This document shows, piece by piece, positions 21,166-30,125 of a stretch of 64,000 nt of DNA (position 1 is the stretch's first letter; each line of letters opens with the position of its first letter). A program made the position numbers and the translations under genes. A model generated the notes under the pieces. It was given only the letters and a program-made list of their open reading frames with translations. It ran no database searches and had not been told where the DNA came from. The stretch comes from Arthrobacter sp. (GTDB lineage: Bacteria > Actinomycetota > Actinomycetes > Actinomycetales > Micrococcaceae): NCBI RefSeq assembly GCF_031179985.1, contig NZ_JAPSHJ010000005.1, forward strand, positions 62,001-126,000, in the 5' to 3' direction.

Positions 21166-22602
21166 ATGCAGAAAGCAACGGACGTTGCGGACGAGGATCT
21201 CATCCGTTCCGGCCGCGAGGGCGACCGCACTGCCTTGGAGGTCCTCTACAACAGGCATCACGACGCCGGTCTAAAGTTCGCGCGGCGGCTAACGGGCAAC
21301 AAGGCAGACGCCGAAGACGTCACCCAGGAAGCGTTCCTCAAAGTCGTCTCGGCCATGGAGCGCGGCAACGGGCCGGAAACTGCATTCAGGCCGTACTTTC
21401 TGAGGGCAGTGCGCACCGTCGCCGCTGACCACTGGGAGAACCAGGCCAAGGAGACACCCACGGAAAACGCCGGTGATACCCCGGTGGAGGACGCCTCGCT
21501 GGCCTCCCTGTTTCAGCGGGATGACCCCGAATTGGTCATGAAAGCATTCCAGTCACTCCCATTGCGGTGGATGACTGTCCTCTGGCATGCGGAAGTGGAA
21601 CGGGAACCACCCCGCAAGATCGCCCCAGTCCTCGGCATGGAACCCGGGGCTGTTTCGGCACTGCTCTTACGGGCAAGGAAAGGGCTTCGTGAGGCCTATC
21701 TCAGCGCCTATGCGGAGGCCCCTCTGCGCTCAGACTGCGAGCCGACTTTTCCCTACCTTGCCGCGACGGTGCTGGGGACCAGCTCTGCTCGTGATCGGAG
21801 GAAGGTGCACGAACACATCCGCGACTGTGAAGACTGCGCCAAGGTCCTGGCTCAGCTGACCGACGTCGGAGCGACAATGAGGGGCATCGTTGCCCCCTTT
21901 GTGCTCCTCGGCCCTGCCCTGGGCGGCGCCCGCTTCTCTCTGCAAGACCATTTCCCTCCGCGTTGGACAGCAACGGCGGCTGCCGCGGGCGTGGTGACTC
22001 TGGCGGTCGGAGCTGTGGCCGCCGTCGCTGTAGCGGGTGGTTTTTTCAGCAGCGGACCGAGCGCTGCGCCGCCCCCGCATGAAACTGAGTTGAGCCGAGC
22101 AGTTCCTGCAAGTCCGGAGCTGCCTCCCGCAATCACCAACACGGCGCCGCCCCCCACCTCCGGGCCCTTGCCTGCGGAGGACCCTGGCTCACCGGGCTCG
22201 GATTACCCGGCAGGGTCCCTCTTCGCTGAACCTGACACCGGCGCCTTTCATGGAATGGCACCTGTGGGGCCTTGGCCGCCAGTTCCTGCCGCTGGCCCGC
22301 GTAGTGCCGGGGGAGGTGTTCCGGCCAGGCCGACGGCGTCTCCCATCTCGACTCCGACACCGGCGCCCACCGCTGTTGCCTCCCCATCGGTGACAGCGAC
22401 GCCAACCCCTAGGCCACCACGGACTTCGACTCCGACCCCCACCCCAACTCCGACCCCCACCCCGACTCCGACTCCAACTCCGACCCCCACCCCGACTCCG
22501 ACTCCGACTCCGACCCCCACCCCGACTCCGACCGTTACGCCTACTGACCCCCCGCGTGAACCAAACTGCCCCATCATTTTTGATTTGTGTTTCATCATTT
22601 AG
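21166..22602 (+). CDS. ECF sigma factor fused to zinc-finger anti-sigma domain, membrane helix and PT-repeat tail
   Basis: 478-aa multi-part regulator. Residues 1-75 form sigma region 2 ([12 protein letters not shown]), and about 125-180 form region 4 ([20 protein letters not shown] through [11 protein letters not shown]). A ZAS-like zinc motif H-x3-C-x2-C (HIRDCEDC) lies near residues 217-224. A hydrophobic helix follows at about 268-291, then a Pro/Ser-rich stretch and a long Thr-Pro repeat (about 420-458), ending in a hydrophobic [12 protein letters not shown]. The predicted topology tethers a sigma factor to the membrane with its own anti-sigma module and an extracellular stalk. An ATG start follows the candidate ECF promoter. 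Confidence 0.88.
22430..22534 (+). repeat. Thr-Pro coding repeat
   Basis: Tandem near-identical units built from ACTCCGACCCCCACCCCG, coding (PT)n in the tail of the sigma fusion. Likely a cell-wall-spanning stalk and prone to length change by slippage. Confidence 0.9.
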
Positions 22603-23937: not shown

Positions 23938-24214
23938 GCCCTGATTGACTCCCGGGGAAGCGAATCGTGACGCGACGGAAATGTTGGATCGATTGAGAAT
24001 CGACGTCCGGGCGGATATTGACCCGCCTAAAACGACCACTATGCGGAATCTGTCTGCCCAGCATGTGGATGAATGACTAGATCACGTCATGAATTTCCAC
24101 TCGTCAGTTCTAACTGCTTGGTAGGTGGCGTCCGGCCTGTGCCGATGAACGAACGGAACAAACAGGTTGGCTTTACAGGGGACTTCAGGCGAACCGCCGC
24201 TTGGAACAGTTGGG

Positions 24215-24808
24215 ATGGGGGATCCCGTGCTGCTAACGGCACTGAGGGCTGGGAGCACGGAAGCGGCAGATGTGTTGTATCGGCGGCATGCCGCAGCTGC
24301 ACTGTCATTTGCCCGGGGACTGGTTCGGACCGAGCATGACGCGAAGGATCTTGTGCAGGAGGCCTTCGCCAAAACCATCAGTGCAGTGGCCAACGGAAAC
24401 GGTCCGCTTGAGAATTTCCCGGGCTACCTCTTTACGGCAATCAAGAGCTGTGCCGCTGAGTGGTGGAGTAAGAATTCGAGGGAAGTGCCGGTGGAAGCCG
24501 GCGTGCTGGATGCAACGCACGGCCCTACCCACGACGACCGGCTGCACCGGGTTTTCGACCATGATGGCAATGAGCGGGTCCTGGCTGCTTTGCAGTCCTT
24601 GCCTGCGCGATGGCAGAGCGCACTCTGGTATGCCGATGTCCTGCAGGAGCCGCCTCGGCGGATTGGACCTGCCCTGGGCATAAAACCCAACGCGGTGTCC
24701 GCCTTAGTAAGACGGGCGCGCGCCGGACTACGGGATGCCTACGCTAACATGCTGTTCGAAGAGAGCCAAGGGGTAGTAAATCCACCACTAGAGGACCAGC
24801 TGTACTGA
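24215..24808 (+). CDS. ECF RNA polymerase sigma factor
   Basis: About 197 aa from ATG 24215 (a TTG at 24167 would add 16 residues). Region 2 contains EHDAKDLVQEAFAKTISAV and region 4 contains LPARWQSALWYADVLQEPPR through VSALVRRARAGLRDAY. Aromatic residues in the region 2.3-like segment (NFPGYLFTAIKSCAAEWW) fit promoter melting. No anti-sigma gene follows; instead the divergent small ORF B lies upstream. The 3' end enters the left inverted repeat of the transposon-like unit at 24801, so the insertion may have fixed or changed the last residues (DQLY). Confidence 0.85.
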   Translation: MGDPVLLTALRAGSTEAADVLYRRHAAAALSFARGLVRTEHDAKDLVQEAFAKTISAVANGNGPLENFPGYLFTAIKSCAAEWWSKNSREVPVEAGVLDATHGPTHDDRLHRVFDHDGNERVLAALQSLPARWQSALWYADVLQEPPRRIGPALGIKPNAVSALVRRARAGLRDAYANMLFEESQGVVNPPLEDQLY

Positions 24809-24817
24809 CCGGATACG
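24801..24817 (+). repeat. Left terminal inverted repeat
   Basis: TGTACTGACCGGATACG, exact inverse match to 26686-26702; overlaps the last codons of the ECF sigma gene. Confidence 0.8.
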
Positions 24818-24827
24818 ATGATCAATC

Positions 24828-25050
24828 GTGGAAGGGGGGCTGGCTGCCGCATGCGGTGGGGGTCGGTGGAAGCGCTCGATCTTGCCGTTCGTCTGTGGGC
24901 GATACGGGCGGGTGCGCTTGTGCTTGAATTCACACTGTGTTTGTTGCGCGGCTTGCCGGGTGTCTTGGCGCGGTTCTTCTCGCCTTGTCGGCGGCCGACG
25001 TAGCGCCAGCCTCCGCCGTCGGGGATCACATCTACATGAATCACGGAGCC
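24828..25050 (-). pseudogene. IS481-family transposase remnant
   Basis: Minus-strand fragments of a DDE transposase. One frame reads IHVDVIPDGGGWRYVGRRQG (start of the rve catalytic domain); another reads KRTRPYRPQTNGKIERFHR, the strongly conserved segment near the catalytic glutamate of IS481-type enzymes. The stretch that would join them is deleted, the frame shifts, and the N-terminal helix-turn-helix is missing. No active transposase can be made from this copy. Confidence 0.82.
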
Positions 25051-25168
25051 GGGATGCCTTTAGCCGGTGGAGCGGTGTGAGAGCAGCGTTTGCGTGGGTC
25101 ATGAATTCCCTCAGAAACGGAAAGGGGCCAGCCGGAATTCGGCTGACCCCTTAGGTTGTGCGTGCAGT

Positions 25169-26729: not shown

Positions 26730-27062
26730 TCAGGCAGTGGCTAGTTCGTGGGCGTCCAGGATCTCAGCGGGTAGCCTTCCCCTGCTGTTGGCTGCATAGC
26801 CATTTCGTTCAGCCCATTCACGAATGCTGGACGCGTTGGACGGAACTCGTCGGGCTTGGCGGACGGCGTTTTCTCGGCGATTCCTGCCAGTTACCTTCCG
26901 CCCAGCTGTCATGTAGGGCGTAAGCAGCTCCCTCAATGCAGCGGCATTCATGGCCGATAGATCGATTTCGTAGTGAGCCCCATCAATCATGAAAGACACG
27001 GTTCTGTCGGCCGTGGTTCCGTCCAGATCATCGACGAATTCGGTCACTATCTTTGTTGCCAT
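26730..27062 (-). CDS. lsr2: Lsr2-type nucleoid-associated protein
   Basis: 110-aa H-NS-like xenogeneic silencer. N-terminal dimerisation domain: ATKIVTEFVDDLDGTTAD and YEIDLSAMNAAALRELLTPY. C-terminal DNA-binding domain: IREWAERNGYAANSRGRLPA with the AT-hook-like RGR. Binds AT-rich, often foreign, DNA and bridges it. A GGAATGA ribosome site precedes the ATG. Its place in an accessory region suggests either local control of these genes or a mobile extra copy. Confidence 0.95.
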   Translation of the reverse strand: MATKIVTEFVDDLDGTTADRTVSFMIDGAHYEIDLSAMNAAALRELLTPYMTAGRKVTGRNRRENAVRQARRVPSNASSIREWAERNGYAANSRGRLPAEILDAHELATA

Positions 27063-27322: not shown

Positions 27323-28264
27323 TCAGTAGCGCTTGGTGAAACGGCGGTACCAGAGGGCCGCTTCCGCAGAAATCGTGAAGGCTGGGGGGTTCAGGCCGGT
27401 GAGGGCCCACAACCGGTCCGACTCATACCAATGGTCTTGCGAGAGCAGTGCGGCCTGGTGGCTGGTGAATCCGCTTTGGAGAAGGAGGATAAGGGAGCGT
27501 TCAAAATCCGTCGAGGCTGACCCCAGTGGCCCGGTGATCTTGTCCTGGATCTCAAGCAGTAGCCGTTCCACACTCACCGGTTCTGGTTCCGCGGCGTGGA
27601 ATGGCCCCGAAATCCCGGCGCCTAAGCCCGGACCTACCAGAGCTGAGATCAGCTGGCCCAGATGCCCTACGTCGATCACGGACAGTTTTGAGCTGCCGTC
27701 ACCAACTGGTCCACCCACGACGGCAGCCATGCGAATCAGGGCCGGGATAAACCATTTGTCTCCCTGGCCGTAGATCAGCCCAGTGCGAATTACGCTGCCT
27801 CCGGCATTCAGGACCAGACGTTCAGCTGACGCCCGTGAGCGGCTTGCAGCGGATTCGGGTGCATAGGGGAGAGAAGTGCCCTCTCCTCTGTGTGGGCCTG
27901 TTCCGTAAACAGACGTGGTGCTGATCTGTATGAACCGCGAGACACTGTTTCGGGCGGCGGCATCGAGAAGATTGCCGGTGCCGTCCGAGTTGACCTCAGT
28001 TGCCGTTAAGGCGTCTGCGCCGGTGTACGTGGCAGCGTTAACAATTGTGTCGGCTCCAGCGATGGCACTGTTAAGGCTGTCGACGTCGGTAATGTCCCCG
28101 ACGTATATGCTGGCCTTACGGCTCTCCGGGAGGACTGTCGTCGGACGTGCCAAGATGCGAAGGTCGTTTTCGCCGCGAGCGGTGATGGCTTCAAGGATGC
28201 TGCGGCCGATGAATCCGGATGCGCCTGTGAGCAGAACTATCGGCTTCCGCGAACCTTTTTTCAT
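27323..28264 (-). CDS. NAD(P)-dependent epimerase/dehydrogenase, probable partner of AfsA-type signal synthesis
   Basis: About 313 aa from ATG 28264; an upstream in-frame start at 28333 runs into the shared promoter. Rossmann motif VLLTGASGFIGRSILEAI, then an extended-SDR layout with STTSVYGTG; the usual Y-x3-K pair is not obvious (ESAASRSRASAE in its place), which is odd for the family. It is divergent from the ScbR-like receptor by 92 bases and near the AfsA-like gene. Similar NAD-dependent enzymes neighbour butyrolactone loci in Streptomyces, so a reductive step in signal synthesis is plausible, not shown. Confidence 0.78.
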   Translation of the reverse strand: MKKGSRKPIVLLTGASGFIGRSILEAITARGENDLRILARPTTVLPESRKASIYVGDITDVDSLNSAIAGADTIVNAATYTGADALTATEVNSDGTGNLLDAAARNSVSRFIQISTTSVYGTGPHRGEGTSLPYAPESAASRSRASAERLVLNAGGSVIRTGLIYGQGDKWFIPALIRMAAVVGGPVGDGSSKLSVIDVGHLGQLISALVGPGLGAGISGPFHAAEPEPVSVERLLLEIQDKITGPLGSASTDFERSLILLLQSGFTSHQAALLSQDHWYESDRLWALTGLNPPAFTISAEAALWYRRFTKRY

Positions 28265-28356
28265 GATTCGCTCTGCCAGGCGGGGAGAGTTCTTGGTCTT
28301 GTGCGGGACGAGGCCCGGAGTTTGGTGGCACATCCAGTCAACGAGGAATTGTATAT

Positions 28357-29019
28357 ATGCCTGTGCAGGAACGTGCGAGGGTGACGAGGGGCTCCATAGT
28401 GGCCGGGGCCGCTGCAGTGTTCGAAGAAGCAGGCTATGGCAGTGCGAGCCTGAGTACTGTAGCCGAACGGGCAGGTGTGACGAAGGGTGCCCTGTACTTT
28501 CACTTCAGTTCCAAGGAAGACCTGGCCCTTGCTGTCATCGAGGCACAGCATGCCCTTGTTACTAAAGAAGCCCGACGTACGGCGTCGTATGGACGCGATG
28601 CTTTGTCTACTATGGTCATGATCTGTGGAAGTTTCGCCAGACAGCTGGTCAGGGAACCAGTAGTCCGTGCAGGTGTGCGATTGACCCTCGAAGCGTCCGC
28701 TTTCGGGCAGCAGGTCACTAAGCCTTATCATGACTGGATCCGCACCATGGAGAGCTTGACCCGGCAGGGCCAGGCAAAAGGTGAAATCAAAGATGCAGTG
28801 GACGCTGCTGCTTTCGCCCGGTACCTTGTGGCGTCATTCACTGGAGTGCAGATGCTGTCCACGATTCTCACGGAACGCGCGGATGTGCTGGAGCGGATTG
28901 AGGACATGTGGTCGATCCTGCTCCCCTCACTGGTGCCAGACTCGAAACGGGATGAGTTCCTGACGCTGGTCCGTCTGAGTGTCGCGGACACAGAGTTCCA
29001 TCCGAACCCTCAGGCATGA
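28357..29019 (+). CDS. Gamma-butyrolactone receptor, ArpA/ScbR-type TetR regulator
   Basis: 220-aa TetR-family protein. The DNA-binding domain SLSTVAERAGVTKGALYFHF and preceding ERARVTRGSIVAGAAAVFEE are characteristic of ArpA/ScbR receptors, as is the REPVVRAGVRLTLE segment in the ligand domain. Such receptors repress targets until an acyl gamma-butyrolactone binds. An AfsA-type synthase overlaps it convergently and a reductase/epimerase is divergent, giving the standard butyrolactone gene set. Start ATG lies within 92 bases of the divergent gene. Confidence 0.9.
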   Translation: MPVQERARVTRGSIVAGAAAVFEEAGYGSASLSTVAERAGVTKGALYFHFSSKEDLALAVIEAQHALVTKEARRTASYGRDALSTMVMICGSFARQLVREPVVRAGVRLTLEASAFGQQVTKPYHDWIRTMESLTRQGQAKGEIKDAVDAAAFARYLVASFTGVQMLSTILTERADVLERIEDMWSILLPSLVPDSKRDEFLTLVRLSVADTEFHPNPQA

Positions 29020-29944
29020 GCTCAAACTCGCACGTCAGCACCACGCGCACATCCGCGTCGACCCTGATTTCGGCGGTGGCTTTAGTGCGGTTGTGATAGC
29101 TCTTGCTGGGCAAAATAGAAACGTCAGCTTTGTCGTTGAGCTCAACGATTTTCAGGAACGCGGCGTCGAAGCTCACAAAATCCAGGTGAGGCTCCCTCGT
29201 GTGAGCCCGGAGCGCCTGGCGGATGGCTTCCAGCAGGAGAGCCCCGGGGACGTGGTCCAGGGGATGGTCAAACATGATGGGATTCGTCTTGTCGACGTGC
29301 AGCGGCCACGTCCCATCGCGGGAGCTTTCGCCGATAACCACGTGGCCGGGGTGGCGCTGACCCACCTGCTCCGGCGGCAGTGCGATGGTAGGCCTGGGCG
29401 GATCTCCGGCTTCGGATCGGAGCCGCATGCGGGCATATGCGGAGGGGTCGACCACGCGGGCACCCGCTGTCCCTGTCGCGATGCAATCGCCGTTCACATA
29501 AAACCGTGCCTTGACATGTAATTTCGCGGGTCCCCGGGGAGTCCGTTGCAGGACATCCACGTCAAGACTGATATGAACGTTTGTCGGTGTGCTGGGATCG
29601 CGAGAGTGCCCGTCGAGGGCTTGAACGGCCATCTCCGGTAAGAGGAAGACCTGACCGAGGGGCACGCCCTCCATCGAATGAGCTATGAGGATCGTAGCCT
29701 GCCGAAGCGATTCCACAATCAACGCCGAGTCGTAGACCCGAGGAATCGGATGGTAAAAGGTGTGCATTCGTGGCCATTGAGCGCCTGCAATGTAGCGGCC
29801 GTCGCCCACTCTGCGGATATCAGTCATAAATACCTCGGAAAGTCCCCACCGGTGCACCAACTCCCGTGGAACGGTGCTGCTGAACGTGACACCTGCATCG
29901 CAAGCAGGCGCACCGCTGCCGGGCCTCCCACGACCAAAATGCAT
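28868..29944 (-). CDS. AfsA-type gamma-butyrolactone synthase
   Basis: About 358 aa from ATG 29944, which has an AAGGGGGA ribosome site. Two AfsA hot-dog-like repeats are visible: VPRELVHRWGLSEVFMTDIR with RMHTFYHPIPRVYDSALIVE, and MFDHPLDHVPGALLLEAIRQ near residue 225. AfsA condenses a beta-ketoacyl thioester with dihydroxyacetone phosphate to start butyrolactone synthesis. The homologous part ends near FELMPEGSD; the last 45 or so residues are Pro/Ser/Gly-rich and are encoded antisense to the 3' end of the receptor gene (152-base overlap). Confidence 0.88.
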   Translation of the reverse strand: MHFGRGRPGSGAPACDAGVTFSSTVPRELVHRWGLSEVFMTDIRRVGDGRYIAGAQWPRMHTFYHPIPRVYDSALIVESLRQATILIAHSMEGVPLGQVFLLPEMAVQALDGHSRDPSTPTNVHISLDVDVLQRTPRGPAKLHVKARFYVNGDCIATGTAGARVVDPSAYARMRLRSEAGDPPRPTIALPPEQVGQRHPGHVVIGESSRDGTWPLHVDKTNPIMFDHPLDHVPGALLLEAIRQALRAHTREPHLDFVSFDAAFLKIVELNDKADVSILPSKSYHNRTKATAEIRVDADVRVVLTCEFELMPEGSDGTLCPRHSDGPASGTHPVSSLAPVRGAGSTTCPQSAPAHPRVP

Positions 29945-29977
29945 GGTCCCCCTTCCACAACGAGCTGGTGGCAAAAG

Positions 29978-29992
29978 CATACCGGTCGTATG
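29978..29992. promoter_or_regulatory. Candidate autoregulatory element before the AfsA-type gene
   Basis: CATACCGGTCGTATG, an inverted repeat with CATAC/GTATG arms, 34 bases upstream of the start. The arms and centre resemble the half-site recalled for ArpA (GGYCGGTWYGK), in a compressed form. It probably binds the adjacent receptor. Confidence 0.5.
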
Positions 29993-30125
29993 GCTTATTC
30001 CGTTCCAGGCTAGTACTGTGGCCAATGCGCAGCGCATTTTTGGGGGCGGGCCACAGTCTCATCCCGCGGAAGGCTGCCCACGCGCCCTTGAGGCCAAGTA
30101 CTGATCGGATCAATAGGAGTGGCAC

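Follow-up and report, generated by a model that had tools for sequence, protein, structure and literature searches.

A probable Rhodococcus-type gamma-butyrolactone gene module in Arthrobacter, and a candidate receptor-controlled small RNA in related strains

General features of the gbl module

A 64,000-nucleotide stretch of an Arthrobacter sp. genome (hereafter the window) was found to carry three adjoining genes which very probably (at a probability of about 0.8) form a Rhodococcus-type gamma-butyrolactone (gbl) module, by which a gamma-butyrolactone (GBL) would be both made and sensed with feedback. This reading is based on the protein families to which the genes belong, on a gene order that is conserved, on an operator-like site that is conserved too, and on intact pocket residues; the enzyme reaction, ligand, repression and feedback of the module are what we infer. 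GBL signalling has been studied mainly in Streptomyces. It has also been demonstrated in Rhodococcus (PMC5735094), in which this known kind of gene trio is described, and NCBI models already name such genes, the names being borne by the plasmid records (NCBI) in our comparison. No paper on GBL in Arthrobacter was found in the openly licensed literature searched. The interest of the module lies in its genus setting, in an odd GblE, in relatives having only the receptor and in a unit of ARE and hairpin. Arthrobacter and its close kin are soil bacteria with simpler development, which makes them a tractable setting for GBL roles outside antibiotic control. The features of the module are as follows.

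27323–28264, minus strand: GblE, JadW2-like extended SDR of 313 aa (PF01370, alignment, fold; a longer ORF from 28333 is possible)
28357–29019, plus strand: GblR, ScbR/ArpA-type TetR receptor of 220 aa (NCBIfam, alignment, solved-structure matches)
28868–29944, minus strand: GblA, AfsA/ScbA/BarX-type synthase of 358 aa, double hotdog (PF03756, NCBIfam, alignment, tree, fold)
28868–29019, no strand: gblA–gblR overlap, 152 bp tail to tail (ORF coordinates)
29979–29996, minus strand: candidate ARE-like receptor site AAGCCATACGACCGGTAT, ending ~33 nt short of where gblA begins (consensus match, conservation)

The ORF list bears out the coordinates which the first-pass annotation had given for the three ORFs, all of them intact. 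Synthase and receptor converge with their tail-to-tail overlap and receptor and SDR are divergent, gblR lying between gblA and gblE on the opposite strand to both, as in Rhodococcus loci L104 and L117 and in the layout described in the excerpted text of PMC5735094. The overlap is also 152 bp in the nearest named relative, Arthrobacter rhizosphaerae (L042, synthase 78% identical), and 155 bp in L020. The annotation had further spoken of a complete GBL module in a Micrococcaceae-like genome. The module is upheld, being a recognised three-gene set in the same order as Rhodococcus gblA-gblR-gblE; its completeness holds by the Rhodococcus standard only and not by other standards.

The synthase GblA

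GblA matched PF03756 at 102.7 bits over two stretches (Pfam profile search) and the NCBIfam ScbA/BarX equivalog at 243.2 bits (cut-off 200), while GblR matched the NCBIfam ScbR family at 207.1 bits (cut-off 150), and with these cut-offs passed the earlier identification of an AfsA-type synthase and an ArpA/ScbR-type receptor is confirmed. The structure model of GblA has a pLDDT of 79.9, with a tail (residues 317–358) below 50, and its best folds were of the hotdog kind, TesB, acyl-ACP thioesterases and FAS-I among them (fold search). H31, E37, H61, E78, R81, Q82, D226, H227, D230, H231 and E268 are invariant in the 38 aligned rows. These include E78/R81/Q82 of the first of two ExxRQ motifs, one in each half of the protein (E239/R242/Q243 of the second being nearly invariant), and D226/H227/D230/H231 of an FDHPxDHxPG motif. 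The residues of both motif types are ones we take to be catalytic.

The window GblA is the single AfsA place in its own genome (genome search). In a tree of 73 rows (quick method, midpoint root; duplicates L044/L050, the split L094 and rows below 80 bits omitted) all 21 Micrococcaceae rows fall into a single clade (SH-aLRT 99), next to three Rhodococcus rows (93), which are the nearest GblA group. Missing residues or a grouping with unrelated hot-dog enzymes, which the first pass had named as points against its synthase label, were not found: the motif residues are kept and the protein groups beside Rhodococcus GblA.

The receptor GblR

The closest solved chains to GblR include AvaR1, a GBL receptor (5xaz) and CprB. 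Lactone contacts described for AvaR1 are Gln64, Trp127 and Thr161/162 (PMC7347384, in part), and alignment to AvaR1 finds Q64, W127 and T162 in GblR, so that it may plausibly be a true lactone receptor. With the window GblR counted in, the genome has three ScbR-type receptors that pass the cut-off. The two orphans both keep the AvaR1 contact residues, and they could respond to the same signal as GblR. Best upstream ARE matches were 16/18 (17/200 shuffles) and 15/18 (63/200 shuffles), neither of them clear. The orphans adjoin pepA/lpd-like and recQ/glycosidase-like genes (names by eye). Among the orphan receptors of other genomes that were read, L037 is without all three contacts, L035 is without two and L038 is gapped at one.

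The SDR-like protein GblE

GblE matched PF01370 (Epimerase) at 85.7 bits (Pfam profile search), and its structure model (pLDDT 92.2) had mostly sugar-nucleotide SDRs as best folds. It was compared in an alignment of 52 rows above 100 bits, window included, in which two pairs are probably from the same genomes, only two rows are from Rhodococcus, and JadW2 and RHA1 GblE themselves are not contained. The Rossmann GxxGxxG is kept, with G14, G17 and G20 in 51 of the 52 rows and the remaining row gapped there. GblE aligns with solved SDRs by both sequence and fold, the YTETK of 6jkg corresponding to A-S-R-S-R in GblE. At the Tyr site (position 140) the rows carry T (29), A (16), V (4), L (2) or S (1) and Tyr in none of 52; at the Lys site (position 144) they carry Arg in 52 of 52, and YxxxK in this region is absent from all 52 aligned rows.

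As the SDR catalytic Tyr and Lys are missing throughout, the enzyme label is doubtful. Of the NAD-dependent epimerase/dehydrogenase named in the first pass, membership of the SDR family, the Rossmann motif and the fold are retained, and the catalytic YxxxK is not. Without this catalytic pair, GblE would seem to carry out some reaction that is not a Tyr-dependent oxidoreduction, and the loss bears on a known problem, namely that JadW2 is essential, yet the role of JadW2/GblE is described as unsolved in the excerpted text of PMC5735094.

The candidate operator and a proposed mode of action

A candidate receptor site had also been placed before the synthase. The window site matches the AvaR1 ARE consensus of S. 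avermitilis, as given in an excerpt of PMC5744401, at 16/18; 23/200 shuffles were as good, so that alone it is not significant. The case for an operator is made not by the consensus score alone but by conservation in distant Arthrobacter, the 10-mer GACCGGTATG being common to the gblA upstream regions of the window, L020, L021 and L073, where in 1000 shuffles of those regions the longest word in common never exceeded 7 bases. Scores before gblA were 18/18 in L020, L021 and L045, 17/18 in L073, L023, L048, L049, L051–L053 and L094, and 16/18 in L042. Nothing above 16/18 was found in the 250 bp upstream of gblA in L022, L043, L046, L047, L054, L065, L081 and L086, nor in those of Rhodococcus L104 and L117. 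Apart from the window, 20 Micrococcaceae loci were scanned (250 bp, L057 left out), and nine of them, including L042, have no site above 16/18. No ARE above shuffles was found in the gblE–gblR intergenic region of the window, which lends no support to autoregulation of the receptor. This, the degenerate 16/18 match of the window site, the nine loci with no better site and the sporadic distribution of the module count against the GBL reading. A generic inverted-repeat scan was uninformative.

In the proposed scheme GblA would condense a fatty-acid derivative with a C3 glycerol derivative as the start of the GBL, and GblE would act in a later step, probably not via the Tyr-Lys SDR mechanism. As there is no GblD in the cluster, the GBL would probably be of the 6-keto (A-factor-like) form. 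GblR would bind the ARE before gblA, which would be repressed; accumulating lactone would then fill the GblR pocket, take GblR off the DNA and induce gblA (positive feedback).

Distribution and comparison with known systems

A peptide-pattern scan of genome contigs, which gives a lower bound, returned at least 68 loci, at least 19 of them titled Arthrobacter, Pseudarthrobacter or Paenarthrobacter. The order gblA> <gblR gblE> was found in 18 of the 19 Micrococcaceae loci of the scan (the exception, L057, is without gblR), as well as in the window, L020 and L023; in L094 gblA is split. L021 and L022 are apparently the same genomes as L050 and L044. AfsA (PF03756) was found in 4 of 36 congeneric relatives, and the module is therefore sporadic. 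A ScbR-type receptor over the cut-off was present in at least 10 of the 36, a number possibly too low because only the first 45 candidates were scored in TetR-rich genomes. Six of the 36 have a receptor without an AfsA match (G008, G009, G022, G023, G032 and G033), the receptor count again being a minimum. In an order-wide sample the ScbA cut-off was passed by one of 297 genomes (the window's own), and five more match below it.

The cluster of Rhodococcus jostii RHA1 has the same three genes, with gblR between and against the others and no GblD in the cluster (PMC5735094). R. jostii, with GblA, GblR and GblE, makes 6-dehydro-SCB2 (PMC5735094). The window differs in belonging to Micrococcaceae, in a GblA ~31–36% identical to the Rhodococcus copies other than RHA1, and, compared with the RHA1 cluster, in the 152 bp by which gblA and gblR overlap. 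Rhodococcus L104 and plasmid L117 share the window's layout, and on plasmid L116 no gblE is listed alongside. Streptomyces scbA/scbR and jadW1/jadR2/jadW2 belong to the same protein families, GblE corresponding to JadW2 (PMC5735094). In the Streptomycetaceae loci of the scan a receptor gene is upstream of and divergent from the synthase, whereas in the window the two converge; gblE comes after the synthase in many of these loci and was not seen in several, L083 has an E-like ORF far upstream, and some (such as L096–L103) have a second receptor-like gene 3' of the synthase. The AvaR1 system of S. avermitilis is similar in its receptor pocket residues and in an operator type which the candidate site before gblA resembles (PMC5744401 and PMC7347384), and different in its ligand avenolide, a butenolide.

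It is unlikely, in our estimate, that the signal made and sensed here is not GBL but another AfsA-derived one, of the butenolide or methylenomycin-furan type. Such a signal would be in keeping with the near-equal matches of GblR to AvaR1, the receptor of avenolide (E 1.8e-36), and to a GBL receptor (6e-36). Avenolide is a product of Aco/Cyp17 and is not known to come from an AfsA enzyme. GblA, however, groups with Rhodococcus, where R. jostii makes GBL (PMC5735094), and the MMF receptor is without the Gln and Thr that GblR keeps, both of which speak against such a signal.

Less probable still is that the Rhodococcus-type GBL module of this strain is a remnant, silent or in decay. Its sporadic distribution, the degenerate operator, the apparent synthase loss in G022 and the split gblA ORF in L094 speak for this, but the three ORFs are intact, their products are 78% (GblA), 86% (GblR) and 80% (GblE) identical to those of A. 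rhizosphaerae, and the conserved motif residues and the site sequence are kept, as they are in that species.

Neighbouring genes

The first-pass annotation had placed lsr2 and ECF sigma factors near the module, which is correct:

21166–22602 and 24167–24808, strand not given: ECF sigma factors (NCBIfam search)
26730–27062, strand not given: Lsr2 (profile match)

Its proposal that receptor and synthase are cell-density regulators of these neighbours and of surface genes is very improbable. It is favoured by proximity, by the lsr2, ECF and flotillin genes which A. rhizosphaerae L042 also has next to its module, and by one weak site (47911) that precedes an ECF-like ORF (48012; ECF by similarity only) by ~85 nt. 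Yet ARE-like sites in the window (AvaR consensus, at least 16/18) number 21 against 13–22 in ten shuffles, with none between lsr2 and the module, and the lsr2, ECF and flotillin neighbours were not found in the examined flanks of the other 20 Micrococcaceae loci, where the only similarities were of 30–37%, to an ALDH and an SDR of the window. Since the sites are at shuffle level and the neighbours are not shared, the link is not supported. Flanking genes of the Rhodococcus gbl cluster are likewise described as not conserved (PMC5735094).

Receptor-type sites across the window's own genome, to which the first pass had also pointed, gave a similar picture. A module-type pattern occurs once with zero mismatches, at the gblA promoter, and with up to two mismatches three times against seven for the reversed control; the palindromic ARE form, at 9 places against 11 for the control, is not in excess either. 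A looser AvaR-type pattern was found at 4 places against 0 for the control, a point in favour of the wider regulation. Three of these places have one mismatch each. The fourth, at G000:C6:14646, 18/18 to the AvaR consensus and lying between a glcD-like oxidase and an alpha-glucosidase (names by eye), was rejected as not conserved; among homologous glucosidase upstreams in 19 relatives' loci (L128–L146) the best score was 17/18, elsewhere (L134).

AREs and a hairpin element in related genomes

An ARE is present upstream of the receptor in AfsA-less G008, G023 and G033 and of the second receptor of G034 (17–18/18; 0–1/200 shuffles), and ~290 nt upstream of the receptor in AfsA-less G022. No clear ARE was found upstream of the receptors of G009 and G032 or the second receptor of G016. 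Palindromic AREs (AAACCGn6CGGTTT, at most one mismatch) number 29 in 384,534 bases, with 0.6 expected from base composition, over 31 module or receptor loci which are related and hence not independent. Counted over whole genomes, the exact form has one to three copies in 6 of the 10 genomes searched and none in the other 4 (control 0–1 each). Lactone eavesdropping and the candidate small RNA described below can be tested directly in the receptor-only relatives, whose pocket residues are mostly intact and several of which have a conserved ARE.

At many loci the ARE lies within what looks like a promoter, directed into a non-coding region that contains a hairpin (GGGGGAGGUGCG..CGCACCU) with covarying inner pairs. 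Of 206 genomes of the genus, 38 contain the pattern GGGGGAGGTGCG-N6-20-CGCACCT, each of them once (one match in total for a reversed control); the pattern is absent from the window's own genome, and a covariance model found no copy in the window. Thirty loci from the 38 genomes were read. An ARE (at most two mismatches, best in 300 nt) starts 89–123 nt upstream of the hairpin in all 30, and only 18 of 3000 shuffled 300-nt stretches hold one. Its right arm falls on what is likely the -35 region of the promoter before the hairpin, and a -10-like TAnnnT stands at one fixed distance in 29 loci and one base further in the remaining one. A receptor gene is within 1.5 kb of the hairpin in 29 of the loci and a tRNA-Ala just downstream in 29, while gblE was seen nearby in 13 and not in 17.

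Over 24 distinct hairpin rows, 93.2% of the pairs are standard. Sixteen cells are changed on both sides, a number reached by 0/500 shuffles, and slid structures have 0–1 such cells; the number of pairs with two-sided changes (four) was reached by 66/500 shuffles and that of pair types by 266/500. Two inner pairs have nine unpaired cells each, and seven outer pairs were unable to vary because the rows were chosen by exact pattern. When the covariance model was run over 41 sources, among them the window, a single additional copy came up at 39.2 bits, beside the L086 module, whose outer stem AAGTGCG/CGCACTT is a two-sided G-C to A-U change. This copy has a weak ARE (three mismatches) and no tRNA gene in 10.9 kb, and L207 has ARE and hairpin without a receptor or tRNA-Ala in its flanks and with no tRNA in 3 kb; the two argue against the hairpin being a mere tRNA-Ala leader. 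A search of four loci against Rfam returned no family matching at the hairpin.

We take the element to be a candidate for a small RNA under receptor control. It may instead be a palindromic DNA site to which another protein binds, but covariation and a one-sided G run point to RNA. At slightly less than even odds, we suggest that a conserved output of ScbR-type receptors in Arthrobacter is this small structured RNA, and that many strains are listeners with receptor, operator and RNA and no synthase. If so, the window's lineage, having the module and no hairpin RNA, would be a sender with a different output. Within G001–G036, the hairpin is present in 7 of 10 receptor genomes and in 0 of 26 others (Fisher p 1.4e-5, ignoring kinship).

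Receptors without an adjoining synthase

The genome holding the window encodes two further ScbR-type receptors, in which the lactone residues are intact and which are not adjoined by a synthase:

L040 7334-7969, ScbR-type receptor, own genome
L041 6566-7198, ScbR-type receptor, own genome

A scan of the region in front of each detected no clear receptor operator-type site (ARE, scored against the published AvaR1 consensus). Among the congeneric genomes, G008, G009, G022, G023, G032, and G033 have an ScbR-type receptor above the cut-off and no AfsA match, making them possible listeners.

Module variants and a conserved hairpin

In locus L048 of another genome (3395-4868), an extra TetR gene and an SDR-like ORF lie upstream of the synthase gene gblA, with equivalents in L049, L051-L053, and L094. 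ARE-like sites precede the SDR-like ORF and also occur between the second TetR gene and gblA; this arrangement is an expanded module. In Arthrobacter sp. Hiyo8, gblA is broken up into a pair of ORFs (L094 4995-5758).

A conserved hairpin element with an ARE-promoter upstream was found in loci of other genomes, with ScbR-type receptors adjoining in most cases. It occurs in 38 of the 206 genus genomes searched, the genome of the window not being among them. It is a candidate small RNA under receptor control.

L195-L224, hairpin element loci, other genomes
L158 6841-6880, hairpin element, other genome
L049 7656-7688, hairpin element, other genome
L086 7721-7759, hairpin element, other genome

Two tRNA-Ala(GGC) genes flank the synthase-less receptor in L158, with similar arrangements in L160, L162, and L196; this pairing is perhaps an integration trace.

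L158 5876-5951, tRNA-Ala(GGC), also a below-threshold Rfam match to tmRNA
L158 7034-7107, tRNA-Ala(GGC)

Other sites and ORFs

Elsewhere in the window's genome (contig C6), a site at L121 4647-4664, flanked by a glcD-like oxidase and an alpha-glucosidase, fully matches the AvaR1 consensus; no such site was found at the equivalent place in relatives (19 loci). Within the window, an ECF sigma factor (21166-22602) has a long tail with a TP-repeat close to its end. The ORF at 24788-25102 contains, by eye, an integrase-like stretch, RPYRPQTNGKIERFHR, and looks like an insertion-sequence remnant.
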